IMG/VR virus record: IMGVR_UViG_3300043772_002854
Location: 1 to 34,472 of that record
Direction: 5' to 3' (one strand)
DNA length: 34,472 nucleotides
From: a virus
Positions 21,579 to 32,812 of the stretch are shown piece after piece. The translations under genes were made by a program, and so were the position numbers. A model generated the notes under the pieces. The model was not told where the DNA came from and ran no database searches. It was given only the letters and a program-made list of their open reading frames with translations. Every line of letters begins with the position of its first letter. Position 1 is the first letter of the stretch.

Positions 21579-22847
21579 TTATAAAACTATTTGTAATTCA
21601 GCTTTAACTGGTTTACCAAAAGTATCATTATCCATAGGTTTCTTAGAAACTTCAACATTTATTTTATCTTGTAATTTAAAAGATCCTGTCGGTATTTTAC
21701 AAACAACAGCCTTATTATTTTTAAGACCTATAACAATTGTATTATTAGAACTAAAATTTTGACTTTTTCTAACTGTAGCTTTGTCTTTATATTGATTACC
21801 GTTGAATTGGTTTTCAACCTCTTTTACGGCCATAGGGTCTGCAGAGGTATCTGTTATTTTAAGAATAACCTTACTAACTTCTACAGGATCATTTGTTAAA
21901 TTTTTTAAATTACCGTCCCATTTAGTTTGACCTTGTTGTGATTGAGCCACTTTTTTTGTGTACTCATCCATTTCTAAACCCGCTCTTGTTCTTGCTTTAG
22001 GTCCTAAAACAATTGATTGTATATAAATTTTTCCATTTAAATTTTTGGTTTTAGTTGGGTCAACATTTTCTTCTTCTTCCTCTTCTTTAATTAATATAGT
22101 ATTTTTAGCTATTTGATTAATATAAGATTCTACAGTATTTTTAGGTTTTTCTTTTGGGAATAAATTTGGTGCAGCTAGTCTTCTATTATTATAAGTAAAT
22201 TTAAAAAATCCAGCTAAGTCATTGAATAATTCTTCTTTACCCTTTCCACCTTTATTACTTTCACCTACCTCTTTACCATCTTCACCTTCACCCTCCTCAC
22301 TCTCTTTATCTTCTTCTTTTTCCTTCTTAATCACTTCAATAACATTTTTAGCATTACTAAATTCTATCGTATAAAATTTACCTTTTCCGTCATCAGATCC
22401 AGTAACCAAGGCCATAACTTTATTACTTTTACCAATTATGGGTTCTTTAGTACCGGGTAGTTGGGTAATCAATTCTTCCTCTTTAGTGAAAATCATTTTA
22501 AATAATACCCCTTCTTTTGTTTTAAGTTCTAAGGTTAAGGGTTTTTTTTCTATTACACGAGCTAAAGTATAAACTGGTCTTGGTTTTGGTAAAGAAAGGC
22601 CTTCTATGTCACTATCAACAACCTGTAACAAAAAGTTAAACTTAAAAGGTTCAATACTTAATTGGTCTATTGTCTTAATAGAATCTAATCCAGGTATTTT
22701 ATATACACCTATTGATTGAAGTCTATCTTTAGCTTTTTCTAAACTACCTCGAGCTTTAGCAATATCAAGAGCTGCTTGGTCACCAGAAACAGGTGCTTCT
22801 TTTAATAAAGACCTAAATTTATTCTTGTTTAATAAAATTACTGACAT
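21579..22847 (-). CDS. Virion-like protein with N-terminal tag and shared LFNDLAGFFKFTYNNR motif (423 aa)
   Basis: The start at 22847 (MSVILLNKNKFRSLLKEAPV) is chosen because the ATATTTATAA element lies 11 nt upstream of it; an in-frame start at 22901 would swallow that element. The N-terminus contains L-L-K-E-A, a plausible prohead-protease-type site. The middle is a Lys/Glu-rich linker (DKESEEGEGEDGKEVGESNK) followed by LFNDLAGFFKFTYNNR, a motif repeated in the 850-aa protein at 28092-30644. The C-terminal third is beta-rich. No known family is recognised. It lies between the tail assembly chaperone and the tape measure, so a tail or injected protein is likely. The function is unknown. Confidence 0.75.
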   Translation of the reverse strand: MSVILLNKNKFRSLLKEAPVSGDQAALDIAKARGSLEKAKDRLQSIGVYKIPGLDSIKTIDQLSIEPFKFNFLLQVVDSDIEGLSLPKPRPVYTLARVIEKKPLTLELKTKEGVLFKMIFTKEEELITQLPGTKEPIIGKSNKVMALVTGSDDGKGKFYTIEFSNAKNVIEVIKKEKEEDKESEEGEGEDGKEVGESNKGGKGKEELFNDLAGFFKFTYNNRRLAAPNLFPKEKPKNTVESYINQIAKNTILIKEEEEEENVDPTKTKNLNGKIYIQSIVLGPKARTRAGLEMDEYTKKVAQSQQGQTKWDGNLKNLTNDPVEVSKVILKITDTSADPMAVKEVENQFNGNQYKDKATVRKSQNFSSNNTIVIGLKNNKAVVCKIPTGSFKLQDKINVEVSKKPMDNDTFGKPVKAELQIVL

Positions 22848-22858
22848 TGATGTTTTAT

Positions 22859-25005: not shown

Positions 25006-25485
25006 TTAATCAGGTTCTTTTAACCTAACATCGTATTCAACACCACCTTTGTCAAAGTAAGAAATTTCAACATTATCAAGGGCAGCGGGATAATCAGAAC
25101 CAAAGACAAAATCAGACATATCTTTTGGTGTACCATAAACGTTTTCACTATCATAAGAACCTAAAGCCAAACCAACACTTTTAGCTAATGTTGATACTTC
25201 TTTCCATCTACCATAACCACGTTCGTCTAATAAAACTAAATAAAATTTACAAACATTAACAAAGGTTTCAAAAGAACTTGGGTCTTCCATATTAAAAACA
25301 AATTCTTCTCTAAGATAGGCATCACCATATTCCCAACCTGTTTTCATAACAAAAAGATTTGACTTTGCTGGTCTATTCATCGGGTTTTTGGCAACCTCAA
25401 ATGGTAAGTCTACACCACTAAATTGATTAGATAAATCATCCAACCAATCAGATTCTCTTAGTATTCTTTTTATTAACGGTTTCAT
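25006..25485 (-). CDS. Tagged hypothetical protein, MKPLIKRILRES N-terminus (159 aa)
   Basis: The N-terminus MKPLIKRILRESDWLDDL belongs to the same tag type as the genes at 25448 and 25968. L-R-E-S fits an [LI]-x-E cleavage pattern. After the tag the protein looks globular alpha/beta (LFVMKTGWEYGDAYLREEFV, KFYLVLLDERGYGRWKEVST). No family is recognised. The start overlaps the upstream gene's 3' end by 38 nt, so the two are translationally coupled. I infer a capsid-internal or otherwise virion-targeted protein. Confidence 0.75.
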   Translation of the reverse strand: MKPLIKRILRESDWLDDLSNQFSGVDLPFEVAKNPMNRPAKSNLFVMKTGWEYGDAYLREEFVFNMEDPSSFETFVNVCKFYLVLLDERGYGRWKEVSTLAKSVGLALGSYDSENVYGTPKDMSDFVFGSDYPAALDNVEISYFDKGGVEYDVRLKEPD

Positions 25486-25936
25486 TTAACTGACTTTCTA
25501 ATTCTTCTATACGTGATTTTAAATCTTTTATTTCTGATTCAGATTCTGATCTAGCATCGTCTAGACCTCTTCCGTAACCTTCTTCATCACCTTCTTCTTT
25601 TGCTTCTCTAACAGCGTCACGATGGTCACTATAATAAACATAATCATCACAACAACCTTCACAGTCACAAGATTCTCGACCACTATCTACACCTCTTTCA
25701 TAAAGACTGTTAACCTCGTCATAAATAAAACTTCCGATTTCTTGTAACTTATCAATATCTTTAATACCTGCATCAACCAACATTTGATATAGTTCTAGAC
25801 CCTCAAAATTATAGTCATATTCAGCACTATAAAACTTTTTTTGAATTTGTTTTTCAACATCCTTGGTATCAAAACCACGAACCCATTCAAACTCGTCGTT
25901 TTCTTCTTTTAATATTTTACGGATAAGATTTTTCAT
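25448..25936 (-). CDS. Tagged coiled-coil protein with Cys cluster, MKNLIRKILKEE N-terminus (162 aa)
   Basis: Starts MKNLIRKILKEENDEF, a basic amphipathic helix ending in L-K-E. Residues ~80-100 hold ESCDCEGCCDDYVYYSD, four cysteines in a C-x-C-x2-C-C pattern that could bind metal. The last ~50 residues are a charged coiled coil (SEIKDLKSRIEELESQL). No family is recognised. The ATATTTATAA element lies only 3 nt upstream of the ATG, implying a near-leaderless mRNA if it is the -10 element. The next gene (159 aa, same tag) overlaps it by 38 nt. Confidence 0.75.
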   Translation of the reverse strand: MKNLIRKILKEENDEFEWVRGFDTKDVEKQIQKKFYSAEYDYNFEGLELYQMLVDAGIKDIDKLQEIGSFIYDEVNSLYERGVDSGRESCDCEGCCDDYVYYSDHRDAVREAKEEGDEEGYGRGLDDARSESESEIKDLKSRIEELESQLNETVNKKNTKRI

Positions 25937-25939
25937 TTA

Positions 25940-25949
25940 TTATAAATAT
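25940..25949 (-). promoter_or_regulatory. ATATTTATAA element (candidate late promoter)
   Basis: An exact minus-strand copy, 3 nt before the ATG of the 162-aa tagged protein. It probably serves that gene and the overlapping 159-aa gene. Confidence 0.6.
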
Positions 25950-25967
25950 CAGTTAACTTACATATTT

Positions 25968-27461
25968 TTAATCAATAAACGTTCCAGTAGGACTTTGATG
26001 TTTAATTTTAGTATTAGGGTCTAAATCGAATTTTTGACGTAAAAAATCTAAAAATTCTTTACCATATAAAATTTTGTTCATATAAGGTTCATTGTCAAAA
26101 AGACCTATCTTCATCCATTCCGGTGATACTTTTGCCGTAATATCTTTTGGTAAATTAGGGTTTTTAAACCATTTAATTCGGGTTATATTTTCAATTGGGT
26201 TATTTCCACCAAATGATTTATTCAAAATTTGACTTGTTAGTTTTAATTCAGCGTCGTTGACACGTAAACTTAACACCTTACTATTTTTTTTATCTTTATA
26301 TAAATAACATTTTTGTTTTTCAAATTCAGGGTAAAAATTTTCTGTATTTTGATATTTCTTTAGTGTAATTTTCATTGCCTTAGTATAACAAGGTATTTCC
26401 TCTGCTTTTGTAATTGTATTAACAAATTCTTTTGCTTTCTCCAAGTAAAAAGTTTTTTCTTCAGGTTTTAAAATTCTAATGTTTTCACGTTGAGAATCGG
26501 CATATAAATTTTTTTGTAAACAATAATAACCACCCACGTCAGGACCATTTATTTCTGATAAAATAGAATCAACAGTTTTTTTAAATTCTGGTCGACCATT
26601 TCCATACATGACATTATCAGAAATTAAAATAAAATCATCGGGATTATTGTCATTAATATAAGGTTTAATGTTTAAAACAGCTAATGGGTTGTTAATGTTC
26701 TTATCCGTTTTTTTAATTAAATAAGAAATTAAAGAACCTTCTTTAACATCATGAATTAAATATTTTGCATTTTCACCCGTTTCTTTACGGTCATTAATTT
26801 CATCTTGAAGAACACGTATTTTACCATTTAATTTAATTTCAGGACTGTTCCACGTTAAATTACCCTTACCTTGCTCAAATTCTTTATACCAATTTGGGTT
26901 ATCTTTGGTCATATCCTTTAATCTTTGTTTAAGAGCATCCAACTCCGTTTGTATTTTTTCAATACGTTTTGACCCAGCATGACCCAAGGTCATACAATTG
27001 GTCCAATTTCTATCGGTATCAGAACCTGCAATATCATAAGGATGACGAGAGATAACAACCATTAAACTTTCAGCATCAGAGGTTAAAGCTTTTCTCGATT
27101 CGTCAGAAACAAATTTTTTCATTAAATCTTCTGCTCTTAATCTTGTTAAAGCCTTACCAATAGTTGTTGTGTTTTTGGAGTCACCAAACTTTGCAACACC
27201 TTTAATATAATCCAAAACTTGGTAACCATTTTGAGTTAGAAAATCTGTAATTTCTTTTTCAACGTTAGAGATGGGCCCAGATTTTTCTTCTTTACCTAAA
27301 GGAATATAAATACGATAGTAATTTCTATCATGTTCATACTTATCACCTAACGATTTAAAAATATCATTGTATCTTTCACGGTTAAAGGATTTAACATACT
27401 TTCTAAACTGTGAAGGTTTTAAAGCCTCTTGTAATAATATTTTACGAATAATATTTTTCAT
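25968..27461 (-). CDS. Large tagged virion-like protein, MKNIIRKILLQE N-terminus (497 aa)
   Basis: The N-terminus MKNIIRKILLQEALKPSQF carries the shared tag with L-Q-E-A. A distinctive conserved-looking core follows: VISRHPYDIAGSDTDRNWTN, then CMTLG, and later YLIHDVKEGSLISYLIKKTD with NPLAVLNIKPY. Similar R-x-W-x-x-C-M-x-L and D-I/V-x-x-G-[ST]-L-x-x-Y-L blocks occur in uncharacterised phage proteins, but I know no function. Helical linker ~170-230; the C-terminal 150 residues are Lys/Asn-rich. It has its own ATATTTATAA element 4 nt upstream and lies next to the tail tube gene. I infer a protein packaged in the head or delivered with DNA. Enzymatic activity is possible but no catalytic set is identified. 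Confidence 0.75.
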   Translation of the reverse strand: MKNIIRKILLQEALKPSQFRKYVKSFNRERYNDIFKSLGDKYEHDRNYYRIYIPLGKEEKSGPISNVEKEITDFLTQNGYQVLDYIKGVAKFGDSKNTTTIGKALTRLRAEDLMKKFVSDESRKALTSDAESLMVVISRHPYDIAGSDTDRNWTNCMTLGHAGSKRIEKIQTELDALKQRLKDMTKDNPNWYKEFEQGKGNLTWNSPEIKLNGKIRVLQDEINDRKETGENAKYLIHDVKEGSLISYLIKKTDKNINNPLAVLNIKPYINDNNPDDFILISDNVMYGNGRPEFKKTVDSILSEINGPDVGGYYCLQKNLYADSQRENIRILKPEEKTFYLEKAKEFVNTITKAEEIPCYTKAMKITLKKYQNTENFYPEFEKQKCYLYKDKKNSKVLSLRVNDAELKLTSQILNKSFGGNNPIENITRIKWFKNPNLPKDITAKVSPEWMKIGLFDNEPYMNKILYGKEFLDFLRQKFDLDPNTKIKHQSPTGTFID

Positions 27462-27465
27462 TCTA

Positions 27466-27475
27466 TTATAAATAT
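27466..27475 (-). promoter_or_regulatory. ATATTTATAA element (candidate late promoter)
   Basis: An exact minus-strand copy, 4 nt before the ATG of the 497-aa tagged protein and directly after the tail tube terminator. Confidence 0.6.
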
Positions 27476-28091: not shown

Positions 28092-30644
28092 TTAAATCTT
28101 ATTCATTAAAGTTAAAATACGTTTAACCTCTTCTTTTAAAAATTTATTTTCAGGTTTTTGGATTGATTCTTGTTGGGGTTCAACTTCTTTTTTCTCACTA
28201 CCCTTTCTTTTAATTTCACCAGTTTTTTGTTCTCCTTTACCAGAAGAAAGTTTACCTTGTTTTTTTAATTTAGCCATATATTGGAACATATTCATAAGTT
28301 CGGTAATAAAAGCAATCATATTATTTTTAAGGTCACTTTTAGCTTTTGCTTTCTTGCCTTTTCTTTCAGTTAAATAAGATTCACCCATTGAAACTTTATT
28401 GATGTTGCCACCACCTAAAGTACCCATTTTACTAACCATACCACCAGCATCTTTAAAGGTCATACCTCTAAAATTACCTTTGTATACAATCTCAATTAAA
28501 TCATTAATAAAACTACCCATCGCTTCAACATTTTGAGGATTACCTGAATTTACATTAAATGTTTTGGTAAAATCTTTACCCATGATTGGGTTTGATTTAA
28601 GTTTTTCTACAAACTTATCAAGTACATTATCACCCGTATTACCCATTTTTTTAACTTTGTTTCTGATGATTTCTACACGAGTCATGAAACCTTCAAAAAA
28701 TTTAAGTTTGTTGGCGTCAATACCTGATTTTTGTTTTAAAATTTTTATTACTTCTGGGTCTTTTATAAATTTACCTTCAGAAATTAAATTGTTGTTTGAC
28801 ATTTCGTTTATTAATTTACCTTTGTTAATCATTGATTCAGAAAGTTGGGTACATCTTACAGCGTAAGTGCCACCGTCTTCTCTTTTAACTTTAATTTGAC
28901 CTTTTTCTATAGTACTATCTTCTGTACTATTTGCAATAACCTCAACGGTTTTACCAGCCTTTGTTTTTACTTTTTGACCTTTTGTAAATTTACTACAAGG
29001 GTCACTTGATTCTTTTTTATCACCAAAAACATCAGGAGAGGCCATTTTTCTATTATTATATGTGAATTTAAAGAATCCTGCTAAATCGTTAAAAAGAGTT
29101 TCTTTATTAGCTTTTCCACCACCTTCTCCTCCACCAACAGGGTTCTGTTTTGGATTTGGTAATACTGGAGGTAAAGTAGACTCACCAGCTTCAATTGGTT
29201 GTAAAGATTGTAATAAATCATTAAGAGTTTTTGCTCTAGATTGTTTTTGACCTTTAACCCTCATCAATTTAACTAAAGCTCCGGCTGCTACCAAACCAAT
29301 ACCTATTGGTCCTAAAACAGCTCCAAAACCTTTAGCTATTGCGTAACCAGCACCTACTTTTACAGTAGTTTTCATTATTATTTTTGGTACCGCAGTAACA
29401 ATAGTTTTAACTATTAAACCTTTTAGTGTACCACCAGGAACAGTAACTAAAGTGTCACCCATTGATTTTCCTGTACCTGCCCATTTACCTTGAAATATTT
29501 CACCTAAATTATCACCATGTCCGTGTGGGTTTTTAACAATTTCAGTTAGAACGGCTTTTGCGTCATCTGGTGTGGCACACATACCTCCTTTAGCCGTAAT
29601 AGCGTCAATACCGGCTTGAACATTACCTCCACCTAATTTTTTTAAGGCCTCGATAAAATCTTCGGGTGAAGATTTTGGTGTTAAAAATTTCATTCCCTCT
29701 AGTGAATCTGGGCGGGCATTGTTAACCACATTCATTACTTGGGTTATACCTTGACCTGGTTTAACTGAGGCGAAAATATCTGATTTAGTTTCAACAGTTT
29801 TTTTAATGTATTCAATAGAAGGGTTTTGTGTTACGGTTTCAAATAAACTTTTAAACCATTCAGTATTCACCAACCAAGAAAAAGCCCCTAACGATGCCCC
29901 TACACCGGCTAATGTCATTGGTAATTTATTGGATTTTAATCCTTCTTTACCCATTCTTTTGGTATCATATTCTTTACCACCTTTTTTTGCTTGTAACTTA
30001 GCTCTAACATCGGCAGCCTCGTCTTCATTAATATCTCCTACTTCATCGGCTAACAATTCTTTACCATCTTCATCACCTACTTTTTCTTCTTCGGAATCCA
30101 TAACTGTATAAGCAGCTGCCAAATCAACATCTAAGAATTTTTGAACATACTCTGCCAAATCAGCAATTATAGAATTGGCAGCATCTGTTGGTAAATAACC
30201 TTCTTCTTTAGGGTTCTTTTTTGCTGCTTCAACGAGTGAATCGTAAACTGCAGCTATCTCCATTACAGTTTTTAAAAATTGTTCACCTTTTTCATTGTTA
30301 GGAAAATCAGGGTTTTCTTGTTTAATTGTATCATTAAGTTTTTTAATAACTTCATTACCCTTTTTATCCAAAATGGATTGAATTTTAGCTCCAGCCTCTT
30401 GGTCTATCTTACCTTTACCGAAAATTTTACCACCAGCTTTATAACGACCTAATTTAGATAAACCAAATTTTATCTTTTCCCAAAGGCCTTCTTGTAGTAC
30501 TTGATACTCTTGGTTAGATAATTGGTTCTCCACCAACATTCTATTACCTTTTAACATTAAATCAGCAGATTCCACTAATTCATTTATAGTGTTTTGGTAA
30601 TCTCGATTTAAAGCTCTTTCTATGTCTTGTTCTGTTAAAATCAT
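28092..30644 (-). CDS. Large virion/internal protein with terminal tags, membrane-like segments and the LFNDLAGFFKFTYNNR motif (850 aa)
   Basis: I chose the ATG at 30644 (MILTEQDIERALNRDYQN) because the longer start at 30734 would overlap both the clpP start and the late-type element. The N-terminus has L-V-E-S and L-Q-E-G sites. Two hydrophobic regions occur: GVGASLGAFSWLVNTEW, and a longer one with GYAIAKGFGAVLGPIGIGLV. A Gly-rich linker precedes LFNDLAGFFKFTYNNR, which is shared with the 423-aa protein. A small beta segment (KGQKVKTKAGKTVEVIANST) resembles an SH3/KOW-like unit. The protein ends LKEEVKRILTLMNKI, similar to the end of the 137-aa protein. Unknown function; the features suit a structural or ejected protein. 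Confidence 0.75.
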   Translation of the reverse strand: MILTEQDIERALNRDYQNTINELVESADLMLKGNRMLVENQLSNQEYQVLQEGLWEKIKFGLSKLGRYKAGGKIFGKGKIDQEAGAKIQSILDKKGNEVIKKLNDTIKQENPDFPNNEKGEQFLKTVMEIAAVYDSLVEAAKKNPKEEGYLPTDAANSIIADLAEYVQKFLDVDLAAAYTVMDSEEEKVGDEDGKELLADEVGDINEDEAADVRAKLQAKKGGKEYDTKRMGKEGLKSNKLPMTLAGVGASLGAFSWLVNTEWFKSLFETVTQNPSIEYIKKTVETKSDIFASVKPGQGITQVMNVVNNARPDSLEGMKFLTPKSSPEDFIEALKKLGGGNVQAGIDAITAKGGMCATPDDAKAVLTEIVKNPHGHGDNLGEIFQGKWAGTGKSMGDTLVTVPGGTLKGLIVKTIVTAVPKIIMKTTVKVGAGYAIAKGFGAVLGPIGIGLVAAGALVKLMRVKGQKQSRAKTLNDLLQSLQPIEAGESTLPPVLPNPKQNPVGGGEGGGKANKETLFNDLAGFFKFTYNNRKMASPDVFGDKKESSDPCSKFTKGQKVKTKAGKTVEVIANSTEDSTIEKGQIKVKREDGGTYAVRCTQLSESMINKGKLINEMSNNNLISEGKFIKDPEVIKILKQKSGIDANKLKFFEGFMTRVEIIRNKVKKMGNTGDNVLDKFVEKLKSNPIMGKDFTKTFNVNSGNPQNVEAMGSFINDLIEIVYKGNFRGMTFKDAGGMVSKMGTLGGGNINKVSMGESYLTERKGKKAKAKSDLKNNMIAFITELMNMFQYMAKLKKQGKLSSGKGEQKTGEIKRKGSEKKEVEPQQESIQKPENKFLKEEVKRILTLMNKI

Positions 30645-30709: not shown

Positions 30710-31393
30710 ATGACAGAATTCGAAAAATTTGCAATCAAAGACCAAGGTATTGGGTCTAACACTTTACACAGTTACCAAAATTTTATGTCCCAAATACCAA
30801 ACGTACAAGGTAGTATGACACCTTATGTATTGGAAGAAAGAGAAATGAGAGCCACTCAAATTGACATCTTCTCACGTTTAATGATGGACCGTATCCTTTG
30901 GGTTGCTGGACCTGTTAACGACAGAATGTCAACCGTGGTACAAGCTCAATTACTTTTCTTGGACCAACAAGATTCTAAAAAAACAATTACAATGCACATT
31001 GATTCTCCTGGCGGTTCAGTTAAATCAGGTCTTAGTATGGTAGACGTAATGTCTTACATTAAAGCACCTATCGCAACTGTTAACACAGGTATGGCAGCAT
31101 CAATGGGTTCCGTATTGTTAGGAGCAGGAACCAAAGGTATGAGAAGTTCTTTAAGATTCTCAAAAACAATGTTACACCAATCAAGTGGTGGGGCAATGGG
31201 TAACATCCAAGACGCTCGTATAACAATGCAAGAATGGGAAAAAACCAACCAAATTCTTTTTGAATTACTTGGTGGTTATTGTGGCAAAACTGCTGAACAA
31301 GTAGCTAAAGACGCACAACGTGATTTATGGTTATCGGCTGATGAGGCATTAAAGTATGGTATTATTGATGAGATAATTAAACCTAAAAAATAA
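30710..31393 (+). CDS. clpP: ClpP-like serine protease (227 aa)
   Basis: A full-length ClpP, the proteolytic barrel subunit that works with Clp ATPases. The catalytic triad is intact: S131 in GMAASMGSVLL, H156 in TMLHQSSGG and D205 in QRDLWLSADEALKYGIID. The oxyanion-loop motif HIDSPGGSV and the ILWVAGPVNDRMSTVVQAQL head segment are also typical. Host ClpP is usually about 195-225 aa, so nothing is missing. No Clp ATPase is in the window, so it would need a host unfoldase or act alone. It is an isolated plus-strand gene with a host-type promoter and terminator. A role as prohead maturation protease is an alternative, since some tailed phages use ClpP-fold enzymes, but its similarity to cellular ClpP argues for modulation of host proteolysis. 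Confidence 0.9.
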   Translation: MTEFEKFAIKDQGIGSNTLHSYQNFMSQIPNVQGSMTPYVLEEREMRATQIDIFSRLMMDRILWVAGPVNDRMSTVVQAQLLFLDQQDSKKTITMHIDSPGGSVKSGLSMVDVMSYIKAPIATVNTGMAASMGSVLLGAGTKGMRSSLRFSKTMLHQSSGGAMGNIQDARITMQEWEKTNQILFELLGGYCGKTAEQVAKDAQRDLWLSADEALKYGIIDEIIKPKK

Positions 31394-31806: not shown

Positions 31807-32391
31807 TTATCCACCAACAGGACCAGCTGGTCCACCTAATTTAGTACCTTTTTTAATAAATTCACCATTTTCAGCGTCCCACTCAAGAGCGTTAGCACCG
31901 GCAAATATTAAAGTTTCACCACCAGTTTCCATCATAGCTTTAATTATAGCTTTTTTCATTGTTTCAGGGTCAGAATTAAATTTTTTAACTAAATACGCCA
32001 AATTTTTTCCTTTATATCTTTTTTCAAAAATTCCATTAGCTTTTTTACTACTCATGGTAGTACCAATTATGTTACCAAAAAAACCCTCTTCAATTTCTTC
32101 TTCTTTCATAACATTAGCTTTGTTGGTATGTTTCATACCACCCTTTGTCATGTATTTTTTAGCGTCAGCAGCTTGAGAAAGTTTTTTCTTCATTGGAGTA
32201 ACTGATGGCATTCCTTCGGATTGATCTACCATATTACCTGACATTTTATTTTTAACATGTTTTTTAGCTTCAGCACCTTGAGAAGGAATCATGTTTTTAA
32301 CTGGAGCTTTCTTAGATTCAATTGAAGCCTCCATTACGAAGTTCTCAACGATTCTTTCTAATTGTTCTTTGGTTACTTTATATCTAGCCAT
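31807..32391 (-). CDS. Tagged hypothetical protein with internal repeat (194 aa)
   Basis: The N-terminus MARYKVTKEQLERIVENFVMEAS is an amphipathic helix with V-M-E-A, like the tags of other proteins here. Residues ~33-90 contain two imperfect copies of a Met/Lys-rich unit (SQGAEAKKHV and SQAADAKKYM). The C-terminal 90 residues form a compact domain (YKGKNLAYLVKKFNSDPETM and beyond) with a Gly/Pro tail. No family is recognised. It follows the 137-aa gene by 7 nt and shares its late-type element. The very basic N-terminal half could bind DNA in the head; this is inference. Confidence 0.75.
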   Translation of the reverse strand: MARYKVTKEQLERIVENFVMEASIESKKAPVKNMIPSQGAEAKKHVKNKMSGNMVDQSEGMPSVTPMKKKLSQAADAKKYMTKGGMKHTNKANVMKEEEIEEGFFGNIIGTTMSSKKANGIFEKRYKGKNLAYLVKKFNSDPETMKKAIIKAMMETGGETLIFAGANALEWDAENGEFIKKGTKLGGPAGPVGG

Positions 32392-32398
32392 TTTTATT

Positions 32399-32812
32399 TT
32401 ATTTTTTATATGTGTAATTTGATAGTTTATTGAATCTTGCCAACTCTTCGTTGATTAAAGATTTGTTAGAAGATTTTGATTCCATCGCATCAATTCTTTG
32501 ATCTCTTATTTCTTTGATAAATTTATCTATATCAATAGTAAAAAAAGTTGCTAATTCCGCATCTGGTTCTGTTTGTAACAATTCTTGTAAATAAGATTTA
32601 ATAGTTTTTAATTTATTAATATCACCTTCATTTTTAGCATCTAATATTAATTTTGTTATAACACGATCATCCCAATCTTCAATAACAGCTTTTCTAATAT
32701 CCGATTCAAAATCTTCTTTTATCATTTTCTTTTTAGGCACTTCAATACCAGCCTTTTCTAAAGTACTTTCAATAAGTACATCAAGGTCTTTCTTTTTAAC
32801 TATTTTTGACAT
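32399..32812 (-). CDS. Tagged helical hypothetical protein (137 aa)
   Basis: Begins MSKIVKKKDLDVLIESTLEK, with L-I-E-S in the position of the putative cleavage motif. The body is helical (WDDRVITKLILDAKNEGDIN, LKTIKSYLQELLQTEPDAEL). It ends INEELARFNKLSNYTYKK, related to the C-terminus of the 850-aa protein. No known family. It leads a two-gene unit with the 194-aa gene behind an ATATTTATAA element. A virion or assembly role is inferred from the promoter and tags. Confidence 0.75.
   Translation of the reverse strand: MSKIVKKKDLDVLIESTLEKAGIEVPKKKMIKEDFESDIRKAVIEDWDDRVITKLILDAKNEGDINKLKTIKSYLQELLQTEPDAELATFFTIDIDKFIKEIRDQRIDAMESKSSNKSLINEELARFNKLSNYTYKK

Follow-up and report, generated by a model that had tools for sequence, protein, structure and literature searches.

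A likely capsid-targeting tag heads many unrelated proteins of uncultured T4-like phages

Introduction

Why would three neighbouring phage genes encode proteins that begin almost identically and are otherwise unrelated? The genes lie on the minus strand, flanked by genes for the tail tube and the baseplate hub, in an IMG/VR fragment of 34,472 nucleotides (IMGVR_UViG_3300043772_002854), the whole of which we call the window. UvsX, gp32, gp19 tube and baseplate genes mark the window as part of a T4-like myovirus; the fragment contains no head genes. The original prediction, made from sequence alone, was that the three products may be packaged and injected proteins that carry a common zip code. 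In T4, the leaders of the internal proteins (IPs) are capsid-targeting sequences of 10–19 residues that are cut after L/I-x-E (PMC9026906). What the prediction stated about T4, namely core-targeting leaders and their cutting by the prohead protease, was correct (PMC9026906).

Results

Three adjacent genes share an N-terminal tag

The three proteins start with MKPLIKRILRES, MKNLIRKILKEE and MKNIIRKILLQE (Table 1). The claim that MK-x-[LI]-I-[RK]-[KR]-I-L heads all three held, and the open reading frames, coordinates and N-termini given for them were all correct. The tag is basic, amphipathic and 11–12 residues long in the window; one detail required correction, in that the Glu of the 497-aa protein is residue 12 (LLQE) rather than residue 11. 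The bodies were also unrelated as claimed, with no Pfam or PHROG family in common and membership of separate body clusters. The tag is encoded by different codons in the three copies, and that of the 159-aa gene is encoded within the 3′ end of the 162-aa gene in a different frame.

Looser versions of the tag had been proposed for four other genes of the window. Two of these, LLKE/A in the 423-aa protein and LIE/S in the 137-aa protein, held and match [LI]-x-E. VME/A in the 194-aa protein is a poorer fit, with V at P3 and VME/S or VKE/N in the relatives from G008, G009 and G010. For the 850-aa protein, LQE/G at residue 52 is better conserved than the LVES site originally named. Two side observations concern the same region: the 423-aa and 850-aa proteins have a common internal segment, LFNDLAGFFKFTYNNR (phmmer E 4e-11), and the opposite strand within the tail cluster encodes a ClpP protease at 30710–31393 (+), matched by PF00574 with E 1e-58.

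Table 1. Tagged genes, looser leaders and promoter-like motifs of the window; a slash marks the presumed cut.
Feature	Position	Strand	Leader or remark
423-aa gene	21579–22850	−	Leader MSVILLNKNKFRSLLKE/A at 22800–22850; relatives carry MDIKKIIKQELKE/A instead
159-aa gene	25006–25485	−	Leader MKPLIKRILRE/S at 25453–25485; tag kept by orthologues in L013, L015 and L249
162-aa gene	25448–25936	−	Leader MKNLIRKILKE/E at 25904–25936, then an EFEW stretch
Promoter-like ATATTTATAATA	25938–25949	−	Abuts start of 162-aa gene
497-aa gene	25968–27461	−	Leader MKNIIRKILLQE/ALKPS at 27426–27461; orthologues have other leaders, same body
Promoter-like ATATTTATAATA	27464–27475	−	Directly upstream of 497-aa start
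850-aa gene	28092–30644	−	Probable 52-residue leader ending VLQE/GLWEKIK (30489–30644)
194-aa gene	31807–32391	−	Looser leader MARYKVTKEQLERIVENFVME/A at 32329–32391
137-aa gene	32399–32812	−	Leader MSKIVKKKDLDVLIE/S at 32768–32812; LIE/S also in G008 and G009

The tag is confined to N-termini and heads many unrelated proteins

Short starts rich in basic and hydrophobic residues are common in AT-rich phages, and the motif might be a chance resemblance that has been over-read. A tight regular expression for the tag, composed after the tags had been seen, matched 38 of 778 gene N-termini and none of 5,637 interior 35-aa windows in eight relatives or fragments, a set that includes the overlapping pair G001 and G008. 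A degenerate DNA pattern of the tag returned at least 120 rows from IMG/VR, and the reversed pattern had no match in its 2.9 million contigs. The pooled set comprised 168 distinct tagged proteins in 57 body clusters. The existence of a look-alike family, MKxFIKKIFGIxKIE, speaks for chance; the empty interior and reversed-pattern controls and the 57 body clusters contradict it, and we regard this explanation as virtually eliminated. Searching relatives for the tag, a check that the original prediction had proposed, was thus favourable: the observation is real and far larger than first described.

Because a pattern that includes Glu would return Glu, we also used one that did not specify it. Among 68 distinct matches at ORF starts, 46 had E at position 11 and one more had E at position 12, and the remainder was mostly the MKxFIKKIFGIxKIE family. 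Glu-11 is therefore not an artefact of search design. The look-alike proteins, which lack Glu at 11, are about 120–150 aa long (L290, L291, L295, L297, L306 and others).

In 257 Gb of prokaryote genomes, convincing tag matches were confined to one 64-kb phage contig. This contig (L419, QCKH01000009.1), found in a Prochlorococcus single-cell genome, is the 63,985-base IMG/VR record G043, and its co-occurrence with that genome makes Prochlorococcus a possible host. Judged by the tail tube, the nearest cultured relatives are phages of Microcystis, Rhodothermus and Flavobacterium. As tblastn against cultured phages, with both the bare tag and longer tag queries, gave no usable match, the exact tag could not be linked to any isolate for which proteomics exists.

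Codon usage and a promoter-like motif at tagged genes

Ile-8 is encoded by ATA in 90% of tags as compared with 39% in bulk, and codons 7–9 (AAA ATA TTA) are more uniform in DNA than the protein demands. Thus, shared descent or 5′-end recombination contributes to the likeness of the tags.

Exact copies of ATATTTATAATA occur six times in the window (4699, 25938, 27464, 28060, 30671 and 32824), all on the minus strand, and five of the six are just upstream of tail-cluster or tagged genes. In the Flavobacterium phage immuto, TATTTATAAT is found upstream of the terminase, portal, sheath and tube genes, and a tagged gene within the replication cluster has its own copy. We infer that the motif is a late promoter. 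Its position relative to tagged starts peaks 11–16 nt upstream, a spacing that might suit leaderless or nearly leaderless late messages. The motif and an N-terminal [LI]xE were associated when all genes were pooled (OR 2.2, p 2e-7); the genes are not independent and single genomes were mostly not significant, such that the association is clear only in the pooled data.

These results bear on a second explanation, in which recombination has copied a DNA cassette consisting of late promoter, start codon and first codons for the sake of expression or translation, with the peptide as a passenger. The use of AAA ATA TTA at codons 7–9 far above bulk levels and the upstream motif peak favour it. However, codons 3–6 vary freely while the amino acids remain constant, the tag of the 159-aa gene is embedded in a different gene, uses different codons and has no motif at its start, and most tagged genes have no motif at two mismatches or better. 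In addition, the leaders of other lineages described below differ in both DNA and peptide yet retain [LI]-x-E. We consider the cassette explanation very improbable.

Leaders are exchanged between lineages while the site is kept

A search for enriched N-terminal patterns, carried out without a preset motif, identified other leaders in other lineages. MKYLKLFENF heads about 28 genes of G007, MKFIITESKLENII about 16 genes of G004, MKFLITENKLDNII about 9 genes of G003 and MNIKKIIREEI(D)DFDW about 18 genes of G023, with 0–2 interior matches for each pattern. Immuto has its own tag, MENFDLKKFLVEN, on four genes. The feature common to these different leaders, and to those of T4, is [LI]-x-E close to the leader end, the motif after which gp21 cuts (PMC9026906).

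Orthologues of the 497-aa protein allowed the junction itself to be compared. Those in IMG/VR begin with MKNIIRKILLQE, MIRDIIKQTLLSE, MGKFLITEEEKKHILSLYNIDE, MRLRLTEPELKKVIIKMVNE, MKHLNSFKNFNE or MKYIKTFE, each abutting a shared body that starts with ALKPS or a close variant directly after the leader. The Glu preceding the body is an invariant alignment column, even though P3 is F or T, and not L/I, in the last two of these leaders. A cultured orthologue, gp394 of Atu_ph07, starts with MQYTDLIE/ALKPS; such a site is missing in Dickeya and Erwinia jumbo phages. In the DHH family, the junction [LI]xE/[SGT]G[IL][RQ] was present in 11 of 11 members behind leaders of 7–19 residues, and the 850-aa family retained its site in 7 of 7 relatives behind leaders of 28 or 52 residues. 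Two further families keep the site at the body border (5/5 and 12/13). Support from a HAD-like family is weaker, since [LIVFM]xE lies upstream of the body in 36 of 37 members but at varying spacing. One general count of [LI]xE was partly circular, as most of its regular expressions contain Glu; the tests that do not demand Glu are the Glu-free tag pattern, the preset-free leader search and these family junctions. We conclude that leaders are swapped whole between lineages and that [LI]-x-E stays where the shared body begins.

A gp21-type protease accompanies the tag

A further proposed check was whether the prohead protease of the genome is T4 gp21-like. The outcome was favourable, but in relatives carrying head genes; because the window is a fragment without them, the test rests on these relatives. 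Of the tagged contigs, 15 have an intact gp23 gene (phrog_138), and every one of these also has a Peptidase_S77 (gp21-type) gene. Tagged contigs without the protease also lack intact gp23, and its absence from them is therefore uninformative. The 16 proteases that we aligned retain the family His and SSRG and have [LI]xE near their own start. The column of gp23 Glu-65, the T4 maturation Glu, is invariant, with FLTE/A in T4, LISE/A in Mel-JY01, IVSE/A in immuto and LINE/T in G008 and G023. Protease specificity was judged only from these conserved gp23 and gp21 sites.

The tag also appears among the head genes. On several G023 genes that lie between gp21, scaffold and gp23, the tag is longer but has the same core (MKKIIKLNENDIENLVKKIIKEE); the corresponding place in T4 is that of the core genes and contains genes 67, 68, 21, 22 and 23. 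A tagged SprT-like protein gene lies between protease and scaffold in G002 and G008. Short gp23-like pieces in several reading frames were observed in G009 (41748–42216), G020 (185587–186055), G031, G034 and G042, away from the intact gp23 gene where the genome has one.

Tagged bodies and residues beyond the site

Most tagged bodies belong to no known family. Matches were obtained to a tRNA nucleotidyltransferase with a 2H-like C-terminus, SprT, DHH, GIY-YIG, GP88 and ParB-like families, together with a weak ADP-ribosyltransferase match. There were no replisome, shell or tail families among the named matches of tagged bodies, and no IP or Alt family among the Pfam and PHROG matches of the 57 cluster representatives. 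The cluster scan also matched Acb1, 2-5 RNA ligase and tRNA_lig_CPD; these matches probably represent one protein, the tRNA nucleotidyltransferase with its C-terminal 2H-like domain, and hence no anti-CBASS claim is made. One such tagged fusion with a 2H-like phosphoesterase (L099 15606–17138, in G002) adjoins the gp21 gene.

The original prediction singled out the 497-aa protein as a possible effector. This was not supported, as no known fold or family was found. The AlphaFold model had a mean pLDDT of 62 and a pTM of 0.48, no solved fold was matched (the best PDB match was GNAT-like, E 0.055) and comparison with viral models returned only its own homologues. A domain with a W-[TNC]-C-[MT] motif recurs across tagged architectures (L099 5111–7882, L408 2313–2861 and the 497-aa gene of the window, 25968–27461), and phrog_17056 matched this domain in the 923-aa and 497-aa proteins.

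Glu occupies P1′ in 100 of the 168 tags. A DFDW-like stretch, [DE][FLYD]xW[VIA..], occurs within residues 11–34 of 37 of the 168 tagged proteins (22%) as compared with 4 of 1,021 interior windows, and is strongest in G008 and G023. It may constitute a second element or signal.

A third explanation is that the amphipathic helix sends proteins elsewhere, such as to the membrane, the replication site or a host or phage regulator, with [LI]-x-E being part of the helix rather than a cut site. The basic, amphipathic character of the tag, the predominance of Glu at P1′ and the resemblance of several cargoes, including the tRNA nucleotidyltransferase and GIY-YIG bodies, to ordinary intracellular enzymes are in its favour. 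It leaves unexplained why unrelated leaders of other lineages share only [LI]-x-E, why the site is fixed at the body border despite leader exchange and why genes with longer tags are grouped in the gp21–gp23 interval. We judge this alternative unlikely.

Discussion

Our data establish that the leader exists and heads unrelated bodies, that its site is conserved, that the protease co-occurs with it and that the promoter-like motif is associated with tagged genes. The explanation that we favour is that the tag is a lineage-private form of T4-type capsid-targeting sequence that acts in both targeting and cutting, to which we assign a probability of about 0.77; core binding, cutting and presence in the virion are inferred. 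According to this model, an amphipathic leader such as MKNLIRKILKE would bind the prohead core during head assembly, and every protein so equipped would be drawn into the prohead with it. Cleavage after [LI]-x-E by the gp21-type protease would then release the cargo inside the head, and at the next infection the cargo would exit together with the DNA. As nothing but the leader would matter, unrelated genes could acquire it, and each lineage would drift to its own leader while retaining the cut site. Injection and action on the host are more weakly inferred than targeting and cutting. The predicted packaging and injection under a common zip code is supported to this extent, with virion presence, cutting and injection all resting on inference.

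The N-terminal restriction of the tag across 57 body clusters, the absence of reversed-pattern matches and the swapping of leaders around a kept site support capsid targeting, as do the gp21-type protease, the invariant gp23 Glu-65, the longer tags of the gp21–gp23 region and the structural-gene promoter motif. Several points count against it. P1′ is mostly Glu, whereas the T4 sites examined have Ala; the DFDW-like stretch after the presumed cut is not explained by a purely disposable leader; some bodies resemble intracellular enzymes; and the uniformity of codons 7–9 means that the likeness is partly due to descent or recombination. Head genes are absent from the window itself, and the highest number of tagged genes in one phage far exceeds that of T4. 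We found no virion proteomics for any tagged phage. Virion mass spectrometry of Atu_ph07 exists (PMC6102473), and the main text of that study does not mention gp394 by name.

A bolder reading is that, across a large group of uncultured T4-like and jumbo phages, each virion carries many different proteins, among them RNA-processing enzymes, proteases, a possible ADP-ribosyltransferase and many families of unknown function, which are addressed by lineage-specific leaders that can be exchanged and by a second signal, DFDW. The injected repertoire could then be listed from the genome. We consider this reading somewhat less likely than not. Virion cargo is normally identified only by proteomics of cultured phage. 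If the leaders are capsid addresses, the proteins carried into the host could be read from metagenomic sequence, and phages that have never been grown would yield many candidates for host-takeover and counter-defence proteins. The T4 address system would then also prove to be general and to drift fast, with a changing leader and a constant cut site.

Comparison with known systems

Encapsulin and other cargo-loading peptides are short terminal peptides that load unrelated cargo into a protein shell. Unlike the tagged leaders, encapsulin-type peptides are usually C-terminal and are not removed by a maturation protease. The head-protein propeptides of SPN3US and phiKZ are processed by a protease related to that of the tagged phages, and in the paralogues gp53 and gp54 the first 15 residues are identical and include x-E sites (PMC5694885). 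However, these propeptides are mostly longer than 100 residues with A/S-x-E type sites, whereas the tagged leaders end in [LI]-x-E and are usually 7–22 residues long, one family having leaders of 28 or 52; the tagged leaders therefore do not fit this class.

The closest comparison is with T4 IPI–IPIII and Alt. The leader of IPII and IPIII is MKTYQEFIAE/A, and that of IPI is longer. Pfam and PHROG matches gave no relation of the tagged bodies to IPI–III or Alt, and as homologues of these proteins they do not qualify. The leader sequences also differ and are lineage-specific, a phage has far more cargoes than T4, with a maximum of 28 tagged genes, P1′ is mostly Glu where the T4 sites examined have Ala, and a DFDW stretch follows the site. 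On the other hand, membership was met for a short N-terminal leader common to otherwise unrelated proteins, with an MK start; for a leader end at [LI]-x-E, with Glu at 11 or 12 although the search pattern left it free; and for a gp21-type (S77) protease in the relatives, with a gene order around gp21–gp23 similar to that of T4. Capsid-targeting sequences of T4 were already known; what is new here are these tags, the breadth of their cargo and a possible second DFDW element.
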